A stretch of DNA of 64,000 nucleotides, from contig JADHTB010000016.1 of assembly GCA_016776605.1 (NCBI GenBank), positions 1-64,000 of the forward strand, in the 5' to 3' direction. Below, piece by piece: positions 14,841-62,345 of this stretch (position 1 is the first letter of the stretch; each line of letters begins with the position of its first letter). Made by a program: the position numbers and the translations under genes. This stretch comes from Alphaproteobacteria bacterium. Its GTDB lineage: Bacteria; Pseudomonadota; Alphaproteobacteria; GCA-2731375. The notes under the pieces were generated by a model, which had not been told where the DNA came from, made no database searches, and was given only the letters and a program-made list of their open reading frames with translations.

Positions 14841-15221
14841 ATGGCGGTGACCAAGGCACACAAAGAATTTTTCCCGGTTGATTTCGGGGACGGCTGGGAA
14901 GTCCCGGCGGGATACCCGGACGGGATCCAGCAAAAGATTTTAGCCGGTTCGCTGGATGAAGAGAATAATCGCGGCAGCCGGACCCGCCTGCTGCGCTTTC
15001 AGCCCGGCGTCTATACTACCGAACCCTTTGTCCATGAACATTGGGAGGAGGTCTATCTGGTCTCCGGCGATCTGACGGTCGGCAATGACGCCAACGGCAT
15101 GGGCGGCGAAGCTTTCGCGGCCAACACCTATGCCTGCCGCCCGCCCGGCGCGCCCCACGGCCCATTCAAATCAGAAAATGGCTGCGTGCTGTTCGAGATT
15201 CACTATTACGACCCCGCCTAG
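14841..15221 (+). CDS. Cupin domain protein (ChrR / dihydroxyacetophenone dioxygenase-like)
   Basis: A 126-residue single-domain cupin. The metal motif HEHWEEVYLVSG (HxHxxE) and the later PPGAPHGPF give the usual three His and one Glu. Such proteins are metal-dependent dioxygenases, isomerases or sensors. It ends the aldehyde dehydrogenase-monooxygenase operon. Its TAG stop is the first triplet of the large palindromic repeat that follows. Confidence 0.8.
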   Translation: MAVTKAHKEFFPVDFGDGWEVPAGYPDGIQQKILAGSLDEENNRGSRTRLLRFQPGVYTTEPFVHEHWEEVYLVSGDLTVGNDANGMGGEAFAANTYACRPPGAPHGPFKSENGCVLFEIHYYDPA

Positions 15222-15483
15222 AGCATTTCCGGGATATTCTGAACCATTTGACCGCTCACCAAGGCCCCGTGGGTAGGCGCGGTTTGCAGGTCGATGTGGC
15301 GCATCGTCCAAGAACCGCAACGCAGCCACGGGGCCTTGGTGAGCGGCCTTCGGTGGCGCCCCTAAGCCATTCTGGTGCGTTGCGCCGCTTGCCCGATGCG
15401 CCACATCACGCTGCGCAACGCGCCTACCCGAATGGCTTAGGGGCACCATCAAATGGACCAGAATATCCCGGAAATGCTCTAGG
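15217..15483. repeat. Complete palindromic repeat element, copy A (263 bp plus flanks)
   Basis: A long imperfect palindrome with 25-bp perfect inverted ends (15217-15241 and 15459-15483), bounded by TAGAGC and GCTCTA. Inside, a 19-bp perfect hairpin stem (15254-15272 with 15326-15344) is followed by a second hairpin (stems about 15356-15375 and 15427-15445). The 36-base segments 15271-15306 and 15394-15429 are near-complementary, so the whole element can fold on itself. It codes for nothing and sits between convergent genes. The TA ends resemble a non-autonomous element using TA targets. Confidence 0.88.
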
Positions 15484-18339: not shown

Positions 18340-19164
18340 ATGGTCGAATTGACGGTTGGCATCGGCGGCTTTGGCGCGATTGGCGCTACCGTGGCGAGGG
18401 CCTTGGACGCAGGCGCCCTGAAAGGCGGCATACCGGGCATTCGGCTGGTGGCGGTTTCCGCCCGTAACCATGACGGCGCGCGGGCGCGCATGACCGGCAT
18501 GGCGAACCCGCCGCCCGTCGTCGGCCTGGCGGACCTGGCCAGCCTGGCTGACGTGGTGGTGGAATGTGCCCCGGCGGCGGTGTTTGCCGAAGTGGCCGTG
18601 GCGGCTGTGGAGGCGGGAAAGATATTTATTCCCCTCAGCTGCGGGGCGCTGTTACAGCATTTCCAATTGGTGGCGCGGGCAGCGGAAACAGGCGCCCGGA
18701 TCATCGTTCCGACCGGCGCCCTGCTGGGCCTTGATGCGGTTCGGGCGGCGGCCGAAGGGAGCATCCATTCGGTCCATATGATGACGCGCAAGCCGCCAAA
18801 CGGTCTGGCCGGCGCACCGCATCTGATCGAAAACGGCATCAACATCGAAAATCTCAGGGCGCCCAAATTGGTGTTCGAGGGCACGGCGCGAGACGCGGCC
18901 AAGGCCTTCCCGGCCAACGTCAACGTCGCCGCCGCCCTTAGCTTGGCCGGCAATGGACCCGATAACACAACCATTGAAATCTGGGCCGACCCCGGCGTCA
19001 GCCGCAATACCCACACCATCAAGCTGGATTCCGATGCCACCCGCTTTGAGATGACCATCGAAGGCATCCCATCGCCTGAAAACCCCGCGACCGGCCTGCT
19101 GACGCCGTTGAGTGTCCTGGCAACCCTGCGCGGACTGGTCAGCCCCCTGAAAGTAGGTACGTAA
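18340..19164 (+). CDS. Aspartate dehydrogenase-like NAD(P)-binding protein (NadX family)
   Basis: A 274-residue protein with an N-terminal Rossmann motif (GIGGFGAIGATVARAL) and the DUF108 C-terminal domain (NVNVAAALSLAGNGPDNTTIEIWADPGVSRNTH). This is the aspartate dehydrogenase family, which interconverts aspartate and iminoaspartate/oxaloacetate. No nadA or nadC is nearby, so a catabolic role on another amino acid or amine is as likely as NAD synthesis. Its stop overlaps the start of the LLM gene (TAATG). Confidence 0.82.
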   Translation: MVELTVGIGGFGAIGATVARALDAGALKGGIPGIRLVAVSARNHDGARARMTGMANPPPVVGLADLASLADVVVECAPAAVFAEVAVAAVEAGKIFIPLSCGALLQHFQLVARAAETGARIIVPTGALLGLDAVRAAAEGSIHSVHMMTRKPPNGLAGAPHLIENGINIENLRAPKLVFEGTARDAAKAFPANVNVAAALSLAGNGPDNTTIEIWADPGVSRNTHTIKLDSDATRFEMTIEGIPSPENPATGLLTPLSVLATLRGLVSPLKVGT

Positions 19165-20159
19165 TGACACGCCTGGGCATTGCCGTCTCCGGCGGCCCCA
19201 ATCCATCGGAAATTGTCGATCTCGTCACGCTGGCGGAATCGCTTGGCTATGAATCCGCCTGGGTGGCGGAAGGGCACGGGGGCGATCAATTCTCTGTTCT
19301 GACCGGTTGCGCCATGCGGACGTCGAGCATCCAGTTGGGTACCGCCATCTCCAGCGTCTATGTGCGCTCTATCCCGACCATCGCCATGGCCGCGGCCACG
19401 GTGGACGATTTGTCGAACGGGCGGTTTATCCTCGGCCTCGGCTCCTCCCACAAGGTTCAAGTGGTGCCCGAACATGGCGTTGAATATGCCAAACCCATTA
19501 CCCGCCTGCGCGAGAGCGTGGAGATCATCCGTATGCTGTTACAGACCGGGCAGGCCCAGTTTGATGGCGAAACGTTGAAAATTGAGAATTTTGATCTGTG
19601 GTTCACGCCCCGCCGTCCGGACATCCCCATCTACGCCGCGGCCGTATTTCCCAAAATGATGGCGGTCTGCGGTGAAATTGCCGATGGCATTATTCTGACC
19701 CGCAGCACCTTGAAGACGGGCGCCGAGGTTAAGGCGCGCCTGGCCGAGGGCGCCAAGATTGCGGGCCGCGATCCCAGTAGCATTGCCATCACCTCGCTGT
19801 TACCCACTGCCGTGGCGGATAACCGCCAGGACGCCCTGGCCGTGATGCGGCCGGGTCTGGCCTTCTATGCCGGCTTCTTTCCCCGCTATAATCAATTGAT
19901 CGCGGCGCATGGCTTCGCCGAGGAAGCCGCCGCCATCGCCACGGCATGGGCCAAGGGTGACCGTGCCGGCGCGGAACGCTTGGTCAGCGACGCCATGATC
20001 GATGCCACATCTATTGTTGGTACGCCGGAGCAATGCCGTGAACGGCTGGAGGCTTATCGCCAATCGGGCATTGATCTACCGATCATCAGCCCCTTCGCCC
20101 GCGGCGCCAACGCCAAGGCCACTTTCGAAGCCGCCATCAGAGCCTGCGCGCCTACCTAG
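19164..20159 (+). CDS. LLM-class F420/flavin-dependent oxidoreductase
   Basis: A 331-residue bacterial-luciferase-like TIM barrel, of the type called methylene-tetrahydromethanopterin reductase-like. RLGIAVSGG..., FILGLGSSHKVQVVPEHG and TPEQCRERLEAYRQSGID are family segments. Such enzymes are FMN monooxygenases or F420 enzymes. It shares the base A of TAATG with the upstream gene and is surely co-expressed. The TAG stop is the first triplet of a palindromic repeat. Confidence 0.86.
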   Translation: MTRLGIAVSGGPNPSEIVDLVTLAESLGYESAWVAEGHGGDQFSVLTGCAMRTSSIQLGTAISSVYVRSIPTIAMAAATVDDLSNGRFILGLGSSHKVQVVPEHGVEYAKPITRLRESVEIIRMLLQTGQAQFDGETLKIENFDLWFTPRRPDIPIYAAAVFPKMMAVCGEIADGIILTRSTLKTGAEVKARLAEGAKIAGRDPSSIAITSLLPTAVADNRQDALAVMRPGLAFYAGFFPRYNQLIAAHGFAEEAAAIATAWAKGDRAGAERLVSDAMIDATSIVGTPEQCRERLEAYRQSGIDLPIISPFARGANAKATFEAAIRACAPT

Positions 20160-20256
20160 AGCATTTGAAAAAATGCGCCCGGACTCTTAAAAATAGAGCG
20201 ATTGAACCAATCACTTAAGTCGCGATAGCAACCCTAATTAATTAAATATTGCTCTA
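20157..20256. repeat. Composite two-hairpin palindromic repeat (TAGAGC family), degenerate copy
   Basis: It begins TAGAGCATTTG and ends TTGCTCTA. A small hairpin (AGAGCATTT with AAATGC) is followed by CGGACTCTTAAAAATAGAGC and a decayed version of the 60-bp hairpin module seen at 20652-20713. Similar composites lie at 28886-28987 and 50445-50547. Its first triplet is the stop codon of the LLM gene. Confidence 0.8.
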
Positions 20257-20342: not shown

Positions 20343-20654
20343 ATGATCAAGGTCAGTGTGCTTTACGCAAACGAAAGCGGTAAGAGTTTCGATATGGATT
20401 ATTATTGCAACAGCCACATTCCAATGGTGTTAGAGAAAGTGGGCGCGGCCTGTAGCAAAGCAGAGGTGGATCAAGGCCTGGCCGGCGGCGCGCCTGACGC
20501 GCCCGCTGCGTATATCGCCATGGGCCATCTATATTTTGATTCCGTGGAAAGCTTTCAAACTGCCTTTGGCCCTCATGCCGAGGCTATCATGGCGGATGTC
20601 CCCAATTACACGGATATCCAGCCAAACATTCAAATCAGCGAAGTGAAAAGTTAG
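20343..20654 (+). CDS. EthD domain-containing protein
   Basis: A 103-residue dimeric alpha/beta-barrel protein of the EthD family (MIKVSVLYANESGKSFDMDY, HIPMVLEKVG, FGPHAEAIMADVPNYTDIQP). The family occurs beside cytochrome P450 and monooxygenase systems, where its exact role is unknown; many members handle reactive intermediates. GGAGG lies seven bases before the start. It may act with the upstream oxidoreductases, though it has its own leader of about 180 bp. Its stop is formed by the following repeat. Confidence 0.82.
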   Translation: MIKVSVLYANESGKSFDMDYYCNSHIPMVLEKVGAACSKAEVDQGLAGGAPDAPAAYIAMGHLYFDSVESFQTAFGPHAEAIMADVPNYTDIQPNIQISEVKS

Positions 20655-20713
20655 AGCAATTCCGAGTTATTGAGAATCGCGAAGCGATTCTAAGTGATCG
20701 GAAAATTGCTCTA
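20652..20713. repeat. Short palindromic repeat (62 bp) supplying both stop codons of convergent genes
   Basis: A hairpin with ends TAGAGCAATT and AATTGCTCTA and an inner stem GAATCGC-GAA-GCGATTC. The first triplet is the stop of the EthD gene (20652-20654); read on the other strand, the last triplet is the stop of the lipoprotein gene (20711-20713). It could act as a bidirectional terminator. Confidence 0.85.
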
Positions 20714-21910
20714 GCGGATATAGATATGCACTTCGTTGCTAACGGCGGTCCCGGACGAGGACGCGGATAGCGAGATACGGCTGGCGGGCAGGCCCATGTC
20801 CATCAGGGCCTTCAGCACACCGTTGGTGTGCTTTTTGATGGTTGATTGCGCCATGGCTTGTTCCGAGGCGCTGCCCCGGTTCGGCGTGACAGCCACCAGA
20901 TCGAAGTTTGCCTCCGGCCGCACTTGCATGGTCTTTGACACGGCGGTGTACAGCGCCTGCTGGTAGGGCACATCGGGCCGGTCAAAGCGGATCACCACCA
21001 AGGGCTGGCGGCCACCGGCCATAAAGCCCCGGCGCGGTGTGCTCGAGGTCGAAAAAGTCGTCGGTTGCGCACCGGCGCTAAACGCCCGGGCCATCAGGCT
21101 GCTGCCGTGCAATTCACCGTTCTTGATAGACGAGGACAGGGTGGTCAGATTGCTGCGCTCTCCCGCCACATAGGACGTCTGCCGGGCCACGTCCTCATTG
21201 ATCTCGCTCAACAGCCGGTCAATCAGGACCACGGCGCGATTGGTTTCGTCCTCCAGCAACGCCAGTTGCCGGTGATCCTCATCAATGGCGCCGGTCAGGC
21301 CATAGGCGGCGCGGGCGGATTCCAAGACATAGGCCGCCAGTGAAGAATTAGACGCGATCTGATTGGCCAGGCTGTTCATGGTCGCGATATCGCCGCTGAT
21401 CCGGTCCAACTCCGCCTGGGCGGCGTTCCATTGGTTGACCAGTATGGGATTGCCCGGCGTGGTGCCCAGTTGCAGCCGCGCGCCGATAGCGGCCACGGTG
21501 CCATGATAACGTTGAGCATTATTGGTCGTCATCTGCCGGATCTGCTGCAATTGTCCGTTTTGCTGGCCAAGCTGACCTTTCAGACGCTGCAATTCACCGC
21601 GCAATTGGCCAACCTTTTGCCCGACCAGAGTGCCGGTGGGCTGTGCGCTGTATGCCATGTTTGGCGACGGCGCCGCGGCCATAGCGGGCAATGGCGGCGC
21701 GCTAAAGGTGGGTTGGCGGTTTTGTTCGGCCCGCGAGGGCGGAATGTTGACCGTTTGAGATGTTTTGCCCGCCGGCTCGTCACCCGTCAAAGACGGCCAC
21801 AACGAATCGGCGTCAAAAGAACACCCTGAAAGCAAGATTGCCGCCCCTAGGACAGCACCTGTCGACCTGCGCAAATTCACTCTCCCTGACAGGCGAACCC
21901 AAAAAACCAT
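20711..21910 (-). CDS. Conserved lipoprotein with coiled-coil and OmpA-like-fold tail
   Basis: A 399-residue protein with a lipoprotein signal (lipobox LLSGC at residues 26-30). A Pro/Ala-rich linker is followed by a coiled coil rich in Gln and Leu (GQKVGQLRGELQRLKGQLGQ onward, roughly 95-135). The C-terminal domain of about 90 residues (LVVIRFDRPDVPYQQALY... SNEVHIYIR) resembles a periplasmic OmpA-type fold. The role is unknown; an envelope scaffold is likely. A TTG at 21872-21874, seven bases after AGGGAG, would give a more classical 18-residue signal, so the true start may be there. Confidence 0.72.
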   Translation of the reverse strand: MVFWVRLSGRVNLRRSTGAVLGAAILLSGCSFDADSLWPSLTGDEPAGKTSQTVNIPPSRAEQNRQPTFSAPPLPAMAAAPSPNMAYSAQPTGTLVGQKVGQLRGELQRLKGQLGQQNGQLQQIRQMTTNNAQRYHGTVAAIGARLQLGTTPGNPILVNQWNAAQAELDRISGDIATMNSLANQIASNSSLAAYVLESARAAYGLTGAIDEDHRQLALLEDETNRAVVLIDRLLSEINEDVARQTSYVAGERSNLTTLSSSIKNGELHGSSLMARAFSAGAQPTTFSTSSTPRRGFMAGGRQPLVVIRFDRPDVPYQQALYTAVSKTMQVRPEANFDLVAVTPNRGSASEQAMAQSTIKKHTNGVLKALMDMGLPASRISLSASSSGTAVSNEVHIYIR

Positions 21911-22135: not shown

Positions 22136-22310
22136 TAGAGCCGTTCCGGGTTATTCTGAACTATTTGACCGCTCACCAGGGCCCCGTGGGTAGGCCGGTT
22201 TGCAGGCCGGGTGCATCGTCCAGGAACCGCAACGCAGCCATGGGTCTTGGTGAGCGGCCTTCGGTGGCGCCCCTAAGCCATTCGGGTGCGTTGCGCCGCT
22301 TGCCCGATGT
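22136..22310. repeat. Palindromic repeat element, truncated copy B
   Basis: About 175 bp matching the left two thirds of copy A, from TAGAGC through the first hairpin and the GGCCTTCGGTGGCGCCCC linker to GCTTGCCCGATGT. Similarity stops there, in the loop of the second hairpin. Copy C breaks off at the same place. It lies between the lipoprotein gene and tRNA-Arg. Confidence 0.83.
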
Positions 22311-28842: not shown

Positions 28843-28885
28843 CACCACACCTCTTCCCATTTCTCTAAATCCGCCAATTCCCACC

Positions 28886-28987
28886 AGAGCACATTCAAAG
28901 AAAATGCGCTCGGACTCTTAAATATAGAGCAATTGAACCAATCACTTAGAATCGCTTCGCGATTCTCATTAATTCGGAATTGCTCTA
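28886..28987. repeat. Composite two-hairpin palindromic repeat
   Basis: It has a small hairpin (AGAGCACATTC/GAAAATGCGCT-like), the linker CGGACTCTTAAATATAGAGC and the 60-bp hairpin with AGAATCGCTTCGCGATTCT. It ends AATTGCTCTA. It lies in the leader of the BON lipoprotein gene, downstream of yraN. Confidence 0.85.
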
Positions 28988-32845: not shown

Positions 32846-33026
32846 TAGAGCGGTTCCGGGCTATTCTGAACCATTTGACCGCTCACCAAGGCCCCGTGGA
32901 TAGGCGTGGTTTGCAGGTCGATGTGGTGCATCGTCCAAGAACCGCAACGCAGCCACGAGGCATTGGTGAGCGGCCTTCGGTGGCGCTCCCAAGCCATTCG
33001 GGTGCGTTGCGCCGCTTGCCCGATGT
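32846..33026. repeat. Palindromic repeat element, truncated copy C
   Basis: About 180 bp matching copy A from TAGAGCGGTTCCGGG to TTGCCCGATGT, with scattered substitutions (for example GATAGGCGTGG for GGTAGGCGCGG). It ends at the same base as copy B. It lies between the convergent FkbM and GT-C genes. Confidence 0.83.
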
Positions 33027-33077
33027 ACCATTTACAATTCCGGCGTCACAGGTTCCACATCGCGGCGTCATGCGGCG

Positions 33078-44101: not shown

Positions 44102-45796
44102 ATGCGAAAGCTGACGCAAAGCTATAACCATGGGGCCAGTTCGGTGCCGTTGATTGGCGAAACCATCGGCACCTATTTCGATGCCGCCGTTGAACGCTGG
44201 GGCGAAAAAGACGCCTTGATCGTGCGCCACCAAAATCTGCGTTGGACCTATGCCCAGTTGAAGGAAGCGGTCGATGATTTTGCCGCCGGCCTGCTGGCCT
44301 TGGGCCTGGCGCCGGGTGAGCGCATCGGGATCTGGTCCCAGAACAATGCCGAATGGGCCATCAGCCAGTTCGCCACCGCCAAGGCCGGCCTGATCCTGGT
44401 CAACATCAACCCGGCCTATCGCCTGACCGAGCTGGAATATGCCCTGAACAAGGTGGCGTGCAAGGCGCTGATTATCTCGCCCAGCTTCAAGACCTCCGAC
44501 TATGTCGCCATGGTCCGCAGCCTGGCGCCGGAGATCGACAGCGCTGAACCGGGACAACTGCAGGCGGAGAAGCTACCGCACCTGCGAACCGTCATTCGCA
44601 TGGGCGAAGCGGCCACCCCCGGCATGTACAATTTCGACGCGGTCGCCGCGCTGGCCGGGGAAAGTCACCACCAGCAACTGGCAGCCCTCGCCGGCGAGTT
44701 GCAATTCGACGACGCCATCAATGTTCAATTCACCTCGGGCACCACCGGCTTTCCCAAGGGCGCGACCCTGACCCACCACAACATCCTCAACAACGGCTAT
44801 TTCGTGGGTGAGGCGATCAAGATGACCGACGCGGACCGCCTGTGCATTCCCGTGCCTTTGTATCACTGCTTTGGCATGGTGATGGGCAACCTGGCCTGCC
44901 TGACCCATGGCGCCGCAATGGTCTATCCCGGCGAAGGCTTTGATCCAACGGAAGTCTTGCAGGCGATCCAGGACGAAGGCTGCACCGCGCTGTACGGCGT
45001 GCCGACCATGTTCATTGCCGCCCTGGACCATGCTGATTTCGACAGCTTTGATCTTGCCACCCTGCGCACGGGCATCATGGCCGGCTCTCCCTGTCCCACC
45101 GAAGTGATGAAGCAGGTGATCGAGAAGATGCACATGACAGAGGTCACCATCGCCTATGGCATGACGGAAACCTCGCCGGTCAGCTTCCAGGCGGCGGTGG
45201 ACGATACCATGGAGCGCAAGGTGGGCACCGTGGGACGCTCCTTGCCGCACGTGGAATCCAAGATCATCGATGCGGATGGGCGCATCGTCGCGCCGGGCGA
45301 GACCGGCGAGATTCTGACCCGTGGTTATAACGTCATGCTGGGTTATTGGGACGACGCGGCGCGTACGGCGGAGGCGATCGATGCCGCCGGCTGGATGCAC
45401 ACGGGTGATCTGGGCACCATGGACGAATATGGCTATGGCAACGTGGTCGGGCGCATCAAGGACATGGTGATCCGGGGTGGCGAAAACGTCTATCCCCGCG
45501 AGATCGAGGAATATCTGTACCGCCACGACAAGATCCAGGACGTTCAGGTGGTGGGTATACCCGACCCGAAATTCGGCGAGGAATTATGCGCCTGGATCGT
45601 CCTGCGCGACGGTGAAACGGCGGAGGAAGAAGAAATCAAGGCATTCTGCCGCGGCCAGATCGCCCACTATAAAGTGCCGCGCTATATCAAATTCGTCGAC
45701 GCATTCCCCATGACCGTGACCGGCAAGGTGCAAAAATTCGTTATGCGTGAAACCATGATCGAAGAACTGAACCTGGCGGAAGCCAAGACGGCCTAG
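44102..45796 (+). CDS. AMP-binding acyl-CoA synthetase (FadD-like)
   Basis: A 564-residue ANL-superfamily ligase activating a fatty or short acyl acid to its CoA ester via an acyl-adenylate. The P-loop-like motif is [20 protein letters not shown]5 is [13 protein letters not shown], and A8 [21 protein letters not shown]-like sequence is present. The C-terminal Lys sits in [18 protein letters not shown] precedes the start. The stop is provided by a fragment of the TAGAGC repeat. Confidence 0.9.
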
Positions 45797-45811
45797 AGCA
45801 ATTCCGGGCCG
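45794..45811. repeat. Fragment of the TAGAGC repeat
   Basis: TAGAGCAATTCCGGGCCG matches one end of the palindromic repeats and supplies the stop of the acyl-CoA synthetase gene. No second arm follows. Confidence 0.6.
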
Positions 45812-50444: not shown

Positions 50445-50547
50445 TAGAGCATTTTCATTCTGAAAATGCTCAGATCTTTAGAATTAGAGCAATTTTTCCA
50501 ATCACTTAGAATCGCTTCGCGATTCTCATTAATTCGGAATTGCTCTA
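50445..50547. repeat. Composite two-hairpin palindromic repeat
   Basis: A small hairpin, AGAGCATTTTC-5-GAAAATGCTC, is joined to the 60-bp module (AGAGCAATTT to AATTGCTCTA with AGAATCGCTTCGCGATTCT). It ends 25 bases before the start codon of the next gene, so it forms its 5' leader. Confidence 0.87.
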
Positions 50548-54391: not shown

Positions 54392-54444
54392 TAGACAATT
54401 TTCGATATTCATCGAATCGCCTAGCCAATCTCGGAATTGCTCTA
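54392..54444. repeat. Degenerate short TAGAGC palindromic repeat
   Basis: On the minus strand it starts TAGAGCAATTCCGAG and ends AATTGTCTA. The first triplet is the stop codon of the SDR gene. The middle is more diverged than in the copy at 20652-20713. Confidence 0.7.
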
Positions 54445-55221
54445 GTGGGCGACGTAGCCGCCGTCCACCGTCATCGCGGTTCCGTTGACAAAAGACGCCG
54501 CATCCGAGCAAAGCCAGACAGCGGCCTCGGATATTTCCTCAGGCACGCCCAGGCGCCCGACCGGATGGTCGGCCATGATCTGCGCCTTGCGCTCCGGGTG
54601 GCGCTCAAGAATACCTTCCACCAACGGGGTGACGATATAGCCGGGACAAACCGCGTTCACCCGAATACCGGATGCGGCATAGGCGAGCGCCGCGTTTTTC
54701 GTTATTCCGATAACGCCATGCTTGCTGGCCGTATAGGCAACCGGATTGGAGGCACTGGAGATTAATCCCATGACCGAGGCGGTATTCACGATGGCACCGC
54801 CGCCACCATGAGCCTGGCTCTGGGCCAGCATCTGCTTGATCTCGTATTTCATGCAGAGCCAGACGCCTTTCAGGTTGATGCCGATGACACGGTCCCACAG
54901 CTCTTCGGAATAATCGATCAGGGGCACGATGTCGCCGGCGATACCCGCATTATTAAAAGCGAAATCCAACCGGCCGTATGCGGCAACCGTTTGTTCCACC
55001 ATCGCCGCCACTTCCTCTGCCTGACTGACATCGGTACGAACGCAGATGGCCTCGCCGCCAATCTGATCGATCATCGCCTTGGTCGCCTCGCTGCCGTCCA
55101 CGTCCACATCGGCAATGACGACCTTGGCGCCTTCACTGGCGAATTTCAGGGCGGCGGCGCGTCCAATGCCCGAACCGGCACCGGTCACCAGTCCCGCGCG
55201 GCCGGCAAAATCCTCACCCAT
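54442..55221 (-). CDS. SDR family oxidoreductase
   Basis: A 259-residue classical SDR. TGAGSGIG, NNAGIAGD, Ser in NTASVMGL and YTASK are intact, and DVDVDGSE after strand 2 suggests NAD. The start at 55221 follows GGGGAGG by nine bases. It ends the aminotransferase-SDR pair, 24 bases after the aminotransferase stop, so the two may act on the same amino-alcohol or keto compound. The TAG stop is the edge of a repeat. Confidence 0.88.
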   Translation of the reverse strand: MGEDFAGRAGLVTGAGSGIGRAAALKFASEGAKVVIADVDVDGSEATKAMIDQIGGEAICVRTDVSQAEEVAAMVEQTVAAYGRLDFAFNNAGIAGDIVPLIDYSEELWDRVIGINLKGVWLCMKYEIKQMLAQSQAHGGGGAIVNTASVMGLISSASNPVAYTASKHGVIGITKNAALAYAASGIRVNAVCPGYIVTPLVEGILERHPERKAQIMADHPVGRLGVPEEISEAAVWLCSDAASFVNGTAMTVDGGYVAH

Positions 55222-55245
55222 GGTATTTTCCCTCCCCAAATTTGG

Positions 55246-58904: not shown

Positions 58905-58940
58905 TCCGGGCCGCTAGAGCAGATCCGGGATATTCTGTTC
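58905..58940. repeat. Edge fragments of the TAGAGC repeat at the kinase 3' end
   Basis: AGAGCATTCCGGGCC and TAGAGCAGATCCGGGATATTCTG-type sequence lie side by side. The second closely matches the left end of copy A and forms the last codons of the histidine kinase on the minus strand. Confidence 0.6.
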
Positions 58941-61900
58941 CAGGGCTTCGCTGACATATTGGGCCAGGGTGGACGGCGTGAAGGGTTTGGCTAACAGCCG
59001 CACATCGGGATTAAGGCGGCCCTGGCGAACGATGGCATCCTTGGCATAGCCGGACATGAACAACACTTTGAGCGTGGGGCGCTCGGCGACGGCCACGTCC
59101 GCCAATTGCCGCCCGTTCAAGCCGCCGGGCAGCATGATATCGGTTAGCAGTAAATCAATATTGGGATGAGCCGCCAGTAATTCCAAACCCACAAGCGCGT
59201 TTTCGGCGACCAATACCTGATAGCCCCGCTGCCGCAGGACGCGCGCCACCAGAGCACGGACCTGTTCCTCGTCCTCGACCAATAAGATGATCGCGTTGCC
59301 TTGGGGGCTCACGTTGCCCTTGGCTGTCACCAAATGGTCATCCGGGCGGATTTCCCCGCCAGCCGGCAGATAGGCCCGGAAGGTTGTTCCAGCCCCTTCC
59401 ACCGACTCGACCGTTATTTGGCCGTTCGACTGCTTGACGAAACCATAGACCATGCTCAAGCCAAGACCGGTACCCTTGCCCAGCTTCTTGGTGGTGAAAA
59501 ATGGATCGAATATGCGCAATTGATCTTCCGCCGATATACCATGCCCATGATCGGTCACGGCGATCATCACATAGGGGCGCTGCTTAACCGCCGACTGGCC
59601 GTCCGAAGGGTCATCGGCAAGGCTGACATTCCGGGTCTCGAAACAAAGGCGGCCACCTTCCGGCATGGCGTCACGGGCGTTGATCGCCAGATTCAAGATC
59701 GCCTGTTCAAGCTGCCCCGGATCGGCCATGCAGGTCGCAAGGTCCTCCGCCAATGCGAACTCGACAACGATTTCCTCCGCCAGACTACTGCGCAAGATAG
59801 GCAGCATATCGCCCAGCAGCGCATTCGCATCGACCACACCCACTTCCAGGGGCTGCAAACGCGCGAAGGCAAGCATGCGTTTGGTTAATTCCACGGCCTG
59901 ATCGATAGCGCGCATGATTGGCGCGGTCAGCTCCAAATGTTCATGGCCGGGACCAAGATCGTCTTCCAGAAGTACGAGATTGCCCATCATCACGGCGAGC
60001 AAGTTATTGAAATCGTGAGCCACGCCACCGGTCAACTGGCCAATGGCCTCCATTTTTTGGGCTTGGCGCAGTTGCGACTCGCTTTTCTTTAGTTCCGTCA
60101 TGTCTCGCAACGTCATGACGATGCTTCCATCGGGCAACTTGTTCTCGCTGATCAGCAGATCAAACATTCCGCGGCGCATCTCGAACGTACCGCCGGTTCC
60201 GCGGCGCCGGGCCAGCCTTTTTTCCAACCAACCTTCCGGATCATCGTCCGCCGCCGGTAAATCGCCATTGGCGATGATTTCACGCAAGGTATCTTCGAAA
60301 GTCTTGCCCGGGGCCAAATAATTCGCGCGGTTCGCCGACAGACGCCGGTATTGAGCATTACAAACGACAAACCTATCCTCTGTATCGAATAGAGCCACGC
60401 CCTCGGTGAGTTTTTCAATTGCCTCCAGGAACCGTTGGTTCGTCCGTTCCGCCTGACGCAGTCCGGTAATGTCCTTGCCGGTACCGAAATAGCCCTTGAA
60501 TTGTCCGCCATCGTCAAAGACCGGCACGCCGTTCGAAAGGATCCATCGTTCGCCCAACGGCGTGAAGCGGTGATGTAAAAAATCGCTGTAGGGCTCGTGC
60601 CGTTCCAGTTTCGCCAGATGCTCGCGCCATTCCGGTGTGTCCGTATCGGAAAAACCGATCTCCAGCCGGGTCTTGCCCAGGTGGCTTTCCACCGGCAAGC
60701 CAATGATTTTCTCGACCGAACTGGATATCTGGGTAAACCGTAAATTTTCATCCATCTCCCAGAACCAGTCCGATGTATTGTCGGCAAAATCGCGGAACCG
60801 CCGCTCGCTGACCCGCAATGCATCTTCGGTACGCATGCGCTTGGAAACATCCGAGCCAACGCCACGATAGCCAGTAAATTCGCCATTCTCGGCAAATATC
60901 GGAATGCCGCTGGAACTTAACCAGCGGTCTTCAGTGCCCTCGCCTTGCCGCAAATAGACAAAATCGCGAAACGGTTCGTGTCTTTCGAAGCCGGCCAAAT
61001 GCCCGCGCCATACCTCGCTGTCCGCATCGGCCCCAAGCAATTCTTTCGCGGTATGTCCCAGGTATATTTCGGTCGGTATGCCGACTGCCTGCTCAACGTT
61101 CGGCGACATATAGGTAAAACGCAGATCGGCATCCATTTCCCAAAACCAGTCACTGGATGATATTGCAAAATCCTGAAAGCGCTGCTCGCTATGGCGCAAG
61201 GCCAGCTCCGCCAATCTGGATGCTGTTACATCCGTGATAATTTCCGCGATACCGCCGCCATTGGTGCGCGAGCCGGTAACCCGCAGCCGTCTGTCATTGA
61301 CCGTTGGAATATCCCATGGTGCCGACAAATCATGGTGATATCCGATCCACTCATCCACGACTGCCGAGATTTCCCGCGCGGTAAGGTCATATTCCCTGTG
61401 CTTGATGTTGGCGCGGATAAGATCGGCATAATGCGTCCCGGGAACCAATAGGCCGGCCAATTCCGGCAACAATTCACGAATTCGTTGATTGCACGCCAGA
61501 ATGCGGTCCCCGGCGTCATAAATGACGAAGCCCTGGGAGATACTTTCAATGGCGTCAATTAATTGCGCCTGGCTTTCCTGCCGCGCCAACTCGGCATGTT
61601 GATGCTCTTGAATTTCGTTTTCCAGACGCTGGTTTACGGATTTCAAATCGACAGTGCGCGCCGCCACTTGAGCTTCCAGGGTCTCGAGATGGGTTTGTAA
61701 CCTGGTTTCCGCGCGGCTTTCCGCCGTTACATCCGTGACCAGGCAACTAACGCCGACGACATCGCCGCGTTCATTGCAGATCGGGCTGAAAATATTGCGA
61801 AACGATTTTATCGCGCCTGGCTCGCCCGCGACCTCCGTTGCCGTGGTGCCGCCGACAACAATTTCGCCGGTCGCCAGGACCTGACGCAACGCGGGTTCGA

Positions 61901-62099
61901 TCCGACGGGGCGCTTCCGGCAGGATTTCCCGCACGGCACGGCCCAAATGCGCCTCGGCCGGCTGACCGTTCAGGGCCGCCAATACCGGATTGATATAGCT
62001 ATATTGCAGTTCCACATCGAAGACGCAAAAGCCGACGGGAACCGTGGCAAATATTTGCGAAAGCTCGCGCAGTGGCCGCTCCAAGTCTCCTCCGTTCAA
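58914..62099 (-). CDS. Multi-PAS hybrid sensor histidine kinase with receiver domain
   Basis: About 1061 residues, cytoplasmic. At least five PAS regions precede the kinase; two (FQDFAISSSDWFWEMDADLR and FRDFADNTSDWFWEMDENLR) are near-identical. The HisKA phospho-site is GGVAHDFNNLLAVMMGN, the ATPase has N and G boxes (NLAINARDAMPEGG, GTGLGLSMVYGF), and a C-terminal receiver (ILLVEDEEQVRALVARVL, DLLLTDIMLPG) accepts phosphate on Asp. The TTG at 62099, seven bases after GGGGAG, is chosen because codons further upstream (to 62234) have rare AT-rich usage. The last residues EQNIPDLL and the stop come from a repeat edge. Confidence 0.85.
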   Translation of the reverse strand: MNGGDLERPLRELSQIFATVPVGFCVFDVELQYSYINPVLAALNGQPAEAHLGRAVREILPEAPRRIEPALRQVLATGEIVVGGTTATEVAGEPGAIKSFRNIFSPICNERGDVVGVSCLVTDVTAESRAETRLQTHLETLEAQVAARTVDLKSVNQRLENEIQEHQHAELARQESQAQLIDAIESISQGFVIYDAGDRILACNQRIRELLPELAGLLVPGTHYADLIRANIKHREYDLTAREISAVVDEWIGYHHDLSAPWDIPTVNDRRLRVTGSRTNGGGIAEIITDVTASRLAELALRHSEQRFQDFAISSSDWFWEMDADLRFTYMSPNVEQAVGIPTEIYLGHTAKELLGADADSEVWRGHLAGFERHEPFRDFVYLRQGEGTEDRWLSSSGIPIFAENGEFTGYRGVGSDVSKRMRTEDALRVSERRFRDFADNTSDWFWEMDENLRFTQISSSVEKIIGLPVESHLGKTRLEIGFSDTDTPEWREHLAKLERHEPYSDFLHHRFTPLGERWILSNGVPVFDDGGQFKGYFGTGKDITGLRQAERTNQRFLEAIEKLTEGVALFDTEDRFVVCNAQYRRLSANRANYLAPGKTFEDTLREIIANGDLPAADDDPEGWLEKRLARRRGTGGTFEMRRGMFDLLISENKLPDGSIVMTLRDMTELKKSESQLRQAQKMEAIGQLTGGVAHDFNNLLAVMMGNLVLLEDDLGPGHEHLELTAPIMRAIDQAVELTKRMLAFARLQPLEVGVVDANALLGDMLPILRSSLAEEIVVEFALAEDLATCMADPGQLEQAILNLAINARDAMPEGGRLCFETRNVSLADDPSDGQSAVKQRPYVMIAVTDHGHGISAEDQLRIFDPFFTTKKLGKGTGLGLSMVYGFVKQSNGQITVESVEGAGTTFRAYLPAGGEIRPDDHLVTAKGNVSPQGNAIILLVEDEEQVRALVARVLRQRGYQVLVAENALVGLELLAAHPNIDLLLTDIMLPGGLNGRQLADVAVAERPTLKVLFMSGYAKDAIVRQGRLNPDVRLLAKPFTPSTLAQYVSEALEQNIPDLL

Positions 62100-62345
62100 G
62101 CCATCTCTCCCCAGCACAAGGGTGACATTCGTGCCATACCTTACCCGTGGATTTAGAATTGTATTCACCCCGGCAGACGATCCTAGGTTATATCCGCATG
62201 CTAATAAAGCGGGCCCGGTGCTGGTATCCAACACAGGCTGGGTTCACGCCAGCCATGCGATACGGGCTTTGGCCGAAGCATCGTTTACGCCAGCCCGGCG
62301 CTAGCGTAAACTGCGGCAATTCACAGGAGCTTGTTCGTATCACCC

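Follow-up and report, generated by a model that had tools for sequence, protein, structure and literature searches.

Short repeats bounded by TAGAGC form the stop codons at about 5 to 6% of gene ends, or roughly one gene in twenty, in the sampled half of an alphaproteobacterial genome, and most orthologues of these genes stop at the identical codon. The explanation that we consider very probable is that the repeats are short non-autonomous mobile elements of the MITE type, which enter the genome at CTAR, duplicate its TA, and rebuild the stop codon into which they insert, such that stop codons serve as safe landing sites.

Repeat edges as gene ends

The window is the whole stretch of DNA that was analyzed, 64,000 nt of an Alphaproteobacteria bacterium (positions 1-64,000 of contig JADHTB010000016.1, assembly GCA_016776605.1), and it contains 31 matches to TAGAGC as compared to a mean of 11.1 after shuffling. 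The original prediction held that six of its genes end in a TAG that is the first triplet of TAGAGC, and that a seventh, a histidine kinase gene, stops at the far edge of a repeat; open reading frame coordinates and the underlying sequence agree with this in all seven genes. The genes and repeats concerned, in window coordinates, are as follows.

14841..15221, + strand: cupin-domain gene (PF12973), with the TAG of a repeat edge as its stop
15219..15481, + strand: second-family repeat of 263 nt, ends TAGAGC/GCTCTA; its first TAG is the cupin gene stop
19164..20159, + strand: luciferase-like monooxygenase (LLM) gene (PF00296), with its stop in a repeat edge
20157..20256, - strand: two-arm element of 100 nt belonging to the 103-nt family; its left-edge TAG is the monooxygenase stop, empty-site context CTAA
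20343..20654, + strand: EthD-domain gene (PF07110), with its stop in an edge of the 20652-20713 repeat
20652..20713, + strand: single-arm palindromic copy of 62 nt, empty-site context TTAG
20711..21910, - strand: gene labeled lipoprotein in the original prediction, without a Pfam match, with its stop in the other edge of 20652-20713
22136..22309, + strand: second-family copy in a spacer, left end alone intact
28885..28987, - strand: spacer copy of the 103-nt element, near-complete, with a decayed left end
32846..33030, + strand: second-family copy of 185 nt in a spacer, left end alone intact
44102..45796, + strand: acyl-CoA synthetase gene, with the TAG of TAGAGC as its stop
45794..45807, + strand: fragment from an end of the 103-nt element (TAGAGCAATTCCGG), located at the acyl-CoA synthetase stop
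50445..50547, - strand: intact 103-nt element, identical to the consensus, in a spacer and off any stop; the reference copy
54392..54444, - strand: degenerate 53-nt copy, an edge of which is the SDR gene stop
54442..55239, - strand: SDR gene, with the edge of the degenerate copy as its stop
58914..58938, - strand: second-family end fragment inside the 3' end of the histidine kinase gene
58914..62168, - strand: histidine kinase gene, which runs through this end fragment and stops at its far edge

Rfam detected tRNA and nothing else in the window. The repeat at 20652-20713 carries one stop codon per edge, for two convergent genes (the EthD and "lipoprotein" genes). In its final codons (GAACAGAATATCCCGGATCTGCTCTAG), the histidine kinase gene is similar to the right end of the second family, and the C-terminus that these codons specify (QNIPDLL) may be repeat-encoded. 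The homologues of this kinase that were found within the genus are distant. A histidine kinase homologue in the relative G001 (L293) also terminates in TAGAGCAATTTTCAATT, the edge of the same element type.

The copies have the TAGAGC edge in common but are members of different families. Those at 20157-20256 and 50445-50547 are two-arm elements of about 103 nt, the copy at 20652-20713 has a single arm, 15219-15481 is a different repeat of 263 nt, and 45794 is a short end fragment. The consensus of the 103-nt element, obtained from a profile of 49 copies, has two hairpin arms, of 63 nt and 27 nt in this order, separated by a linker; its ends are TA-GAGC and GCTC-TA, and its RNA folds into two hairpins plus the linker at -40.9 kcal/mol (z = -7.3). 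As is typical for a MITE, the element is short, has no coding capacity, and is bounded by terminal inverted repeats (TAGAGCA.../...TGCTCTA). Two GANTC sites are located at the tip of one arm (GAATC at 23 and GATTC at 35 of the consensus), and there are 1.8 GANTC sites per copy where 0.10 are expected. The second family (185-263 nt) has the TAGAGC end as the sole feature common with the 103-nt family, and 18 of its 48 ends are found at stops.

The genome-wide count was run on a sample of stretches totaling 2.40 Mb of the 4.60 Mb genome (52%), in which 2130 genes were called by a purpose-written hexamer-based caller, the calls being uncurated. This sample holds 273 matches to the element, including 99 distinct clean complete copies with TA at both ends. 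TAGAGC is the most common hexamer at stops, being found in 126 of the 2130 genes while the next most common hexamer reaches 36, a result in favor of the original prediction. Viewed from the stop codon, the trinucleotide AGC follows TAG stops 126 times, as opposed to 10.5 times on average for each of the other 63, an approximately 12-fold difference. Within the 103-nt element, the coincidence is confined to the outside: stops are found at 56 of 193 outer ends (26/80, 13/58, 12/27, and 5/28 by variant), as opposed to 1 of 94 inner TAGAGC feet (1/62 and 0/32 for the inner feet of the same element). Stop usage in the sample is TAG 785, TGA 767, and TAA 578. TAG as the most common stop is unusual for a bacterium; it still makes up 33% of stops without the TAGAGC cases, and is common among the orthologues too.

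Target sequence, TA duplication, and native stops

Complete copies have TA at both ends, and a single TA is present at several empty orthologous sites of relatives. When the flanks of a copy are joined with one TA, they align with the empty sites of relatives without any gap at C13:52163 and C2:103314, while at C2:265695 the sole gap is small and lies off the junction; an example of a gapless empty site with a single TA is GGTTATCTGGCGATAGACGATT in G007. These matches support the notion that insertion duplicates the TA. The target is narrower than the TA that had been proposed. TA itself stands, but TA in general does not, as the sites are CTAG or CTAA/TTAG (CTAR): there are 97 complete copies that do not lie inside genes, and their contexts are CTAG in 51, CTAA/TTAG in 36, ATAG in 8, and others in two. 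CTAG makes up 3.6% of the TA contexts in the spacer background (first sample). CTAA and CTAG are thus used, and TTAA is not, with 0 copies despite 942 permitted sites.

The distal TA is followed by A or G in the copies for which this had been noted at the outset, and in nearly all complete copies, indicating that an in-frame TA was part of TAG or TAA already before the insertion. Reconstruction of the earlier stop at 53 stop edges yields TAG in 43, TAA in 9, and another triplet in 1.

These properties suggest a simple mechanism. The element would enter CTAG or CTAA/TTAG at the central TA, which would be duplicated in the process. Where this TA opens a TAG or TAA stop, its left copy would be completed to an in-frame TAG by the G with which the element starts, such that insertion would retain TAG, convert TAA into TAG, and leave the protein unchanged. 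A TAG is present at each edge because the duplicated TA adjoins an element that starts with G on both strands. Since the element begins with GAGC on either strand, and stops of both strands can lie in CTAR, a single insertion can split the stop shared by convergent overlapping genes while both proteins remain intact; the copy at 20652-20713 is a case of a shared stop split in this manner. The original prediction, that an element which starts with G and targets TA would rebuild TAG within a stop codon and consequently be neutral there, is thus supported as to the rebuilding and too broad as to the bare TA, and selective neutrality would be the reason for survival of copies at stops, a point on which genomic counts cannot separate selection from insertion bias.

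Orthologous places were sought with the joined flanks of 30 stop-located copies (from the first 1.66 Mb) in four species of the genus; these relatives are approximately 80-90% identical, and most empty sites are consequently seen at the protein end and not base by base. The stop occupies the identical codon position in 83 of 92 gene-by-species comparisons, and 28 of the 30 stop sites have at least one orthologue that stops at the identical codon. The stops of these 83 orthologues are TAG in 47, TAA in 21, and TGA in 15, so that TAR accounts for 68 of 83 (82%), as compared to a genome-wide background of 64% TAR and 36% TGA. It had been proposed that the original stop was probably TAA or TAG, and that orthologues lacking TAR at the site would speak against this; the stop positions and the prevalence of TAR both bear the proposal out, as do several relatives that lack the insertion and have one TA in an empty site that aligns without a gap. 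In the window, the stop codon position is identical in all nine orthologues of the cupin gene and of the acyl-CoA synthetase gene (9/9 each), in 6/6 orthologues of the SDR gene, in the EthD orthologues of G001, G002, and G004, and in the "lipoprotein" orthologues of G001, G002, G004, and G007. The monooxygenase orthologue in G007 stops at the identical codon as well, as TAA.

The orthologues bear directly on a reading to which we assign very little probability, that the repeats entered coding sequences and supplied premature stops, the coincidence being a by-product of their in-frame TAG. Any in-frame entry of TAGAGC ends an open reading frame by construction, and at C2:32218 the C-terminus of the right-hand gene is indeed 10 aa shorter than in two relatives, a case among the 9 of 92 comparisons in which orthologues differ in length; a few other differences are small. 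However, identical stop codons in the other 83, and in 15 of 15 comparisons for the cupin and SDR genes, indicate that proteins were not shortened and that native stops were rebuilt, and the A or G after the distal TA places a TAR there beforehand. Truncation as the main explanation is ruled out by the orthologue stop positions.

In G002, the orthologue of the monooxygenase gene (L139) and that of the gene at C25:224445 (L118) have a short second-family end piece, TAGAGCATTTCCGGGCTA or its reverse complement, at the stop. Both stops correspond to sites of the 103-nt element in the genome under study, and the pieces are apparent independent insertions at the same stops.

Stop coincidence, chance, and tolerance by place

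Outside gene interiors, 46 of the 97 complete copies are located on a stop codon. Two null models were used, one in which any permitted TA is equally likely and one matched for the NTAN context. The plain TA null predicts 10.4 such copies (P = 9 × 10−20) and the NTAN-matched null 27.4 (P about 5 × 10−5), so that repeat edges are more frequent at stops than expected by chance under either, contrary to what had been named as grounds for abandoning the original prediction. The two-arm copies alone give a similar picture, with 41 of 90 at stops as compared to 26.2 expected (P = 0.0007). Seven copies lie on double stops, those of two convergent genes at once, where 1.4 are expected (P about 0.0005).

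The preference for CTAG and CTAA/TTAG by itself accounts for more than half of the stop coincidence. This raises the possibility, in our judgment a quite improbable one, that target arithmetic is sufficient: the element likes CTAG, CTAG is often a stop in a gene-dense genome, and neither selection nor neutrality is needed. The context-matched null, which already delivers 27 of the 46 matches, is what this reading would predict; the observed number nevertheless exceeds that null, and coding CTAG/CTAA sites, which outnumber stop sites by approximately 5:1, are almost without copies. Only 2 copies are located inside genes, whereas equal tolerance would predict roughly 100 there at CTAG and CTAA sites, and selection must therefore act.

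The ratio of observed to expected copies differs by place, being 1.50 for single stops, 1.59 for convergent spacers, 0.62-0.86 for tandem spacers, and 0.50 for divergent spacers. These ratios indicate that the excess is composed of target preference together with removal from coding and promoter-side DNA. Avoidance of promoter-side DNA accounts for most of the stop excess that remains after target preference, and single stops behave like any harmless 3' site, with no sign of a preference over those. In the rebuilding explanation, coding insertions would be removed by selection and promoter-side insertions depleted, and because stops hold a large share of CTAR sites, stop codons would act as safe landing sites. 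The excess at double stops is larger than tolerance alone predicts and, like the nine orthologue comparisons with a length difference, counts against this explanation.

That excess, and the one at convergent spacers, would be accommodated by selected placement, in which the hairpins are kept after stops as transcription terminators, as protectors of mRNA 3' ends, or as CcrM/GANTC-linked regulators, and enrichment reflects use and not harmlessness. The stability of the hairpins and the GANTC excess (1.8 per element versus 0.10) are consistent with such a role. Single stops are, however, no more favored than non-stop convergent spacers, either arm can face the stop (arm 1 in 27 copies, arm 2 in 18), the consensus has no U-tract after its hairpins, and copy number varies strongly among related species. 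Selected placement is thus unlikely, and harmless insertion at rebuilt stops is the reading we retain.

Known elements, the putative mover, and implications

By published description, the anatomy of the element appears closest to that of the Caulobacter CcrM-associated intergenic repeats, or CIR (Chen and Shapiro 2003, as reviewed in PMC2229807), with a length of approximately 100-110 bp, two inverted-repeat arms and a linker, TA termini, GANTC at the tip of one arm, near absence from genes, and an alphaproteobacterial host; the review draws no link between CIR edges and host stop codons. Bru-RS of Brucella, 103-105 nt palindromic intergenic repeats linked to IS711 (PMC2267715, PMC2266754), are by their description similar in length, palindromic structure, intergenic position, and alphaproteobacterial host, but the passages devoted to them likewise make no stop-codon link. 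In Streptococcus pneumoniae, the stop codons of 36 genes are located within BOX repeats, and comparison to orthologues gives no strong indication that these genes were truncated (PMC3049150). Organism and sequence differ in that case, and the relevant passage offers neither a target-rebuilding mechanism nor a null model for the coincidence.

No gene matching DDE_3, DDE_Tnp_1, or DUF4096 was found in the element's own genome. The 34 TAGAGC-bounded intervals of the sample hold ordinary-looking genes only, as judged by eye, with no evident transposase, and no autonomous element sharing these ends was found in the genome or among the genus loci examined, a further point against the proposed explanation. 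An IS630/Tc1 origin, suggested by the TA target alone, was rejected, the genome having no DDE_3 gene and the target being CTAR. Mobilization in the RAYT/REPIN manner was also rejected, since the element does not border the Y1_Tnp loci of the genome and since its target is constrained on either side. One of these loci (L262, G000:C43:45931-46254) is a RAYT-like Y1_Tnp gene flanked by its own hairpins (GGGGACACAATAC and GGGGACACAATACTTATA), and there are three further Y1_Tnp loci in the genome.

The repeats would instead be moved by a DDE transposase of the IS5/IS427 kind. Both IS711, which we take to be a member of the IS5 family, IS427 group, and IS870, presumably also of the IS427 group, are relevant here. 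IS711 duplicates TA at a YTAR target (PMC2266754), and 2-bp duplications are described for the IS427 group (PMC3281130), as with the TA duplication and the YTAR contexts found here (CTAG 51, CTAA/TTAG 36 of 97). IS711 used TTAA in its assay, in contrast to the element studied here, which never does. According to the title of Fournier et al. 1993, as cited in PMC6471742, IS870 requires CTAG to form the stop codon of its own open reading frame. In the relatives G002 (L215) and G007 (L218 and L220), IS427-like insertion sequences with TA-GGGYCTGT ends are present in CTAG or CTAA sites, and by their sequence these would likewise rebuild TAG stops. On the grounds of these sites and the group's TA duplication at YTAR, the IS427 group is the best candidate mover by behavior, although not by end sequence: the repeats have no transposase, and their GAGC ends do not match the TAGGGYCTGT of the relatives' elements beyond TAG.

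The 103-nt subfamily was found only in the genus of the window, and no match came from a plasmid collection or from named genomes scanned for the pattern. The TAGAGCAATTCCG end has 277 matches in this genome, 10 to 89 in relatives within the genus, and 70 in G015, which belongs to another family, an uneven distribution that may reflect recent amplification or transfer.

Mobile or repeated elements that supply stop codons have precedents in BOX and IS870. A quantified rule in which a CTAR target and an initial G rebuild a stop, supported by orthologues and a null model, had no precedent in the literature searched, which leaves out most subscription journals; stop codons receive no mention in a review of prokaryotic MITEs from 2024 (PMC10969869). 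A more speculative and rather doubtful extension is that the TA-G start common to the 103-nt family, its variant, the 263-nt family, and the relatives' IS427-like elements is an adaptation, in which ends that rebuild stops gain a large harmless niche, including shared convergent stops, thereby shaping which ends succeed and pushing host stop usage toward TAG.

The rebuilding explanation provides a simple, testable rule for the harmless accumulation of repeats, in which a stop is restored jointly by the target sequence and the base with which the element begins, and it explains why such repeats sit flush against genes. It also calls for caution, as mobile elements can determine both TAG usage and the annotation of gene ends where a genome is rich in repeats. 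The cases of shared stops show how overlapping convergent genes can become separated with neither protein altered.
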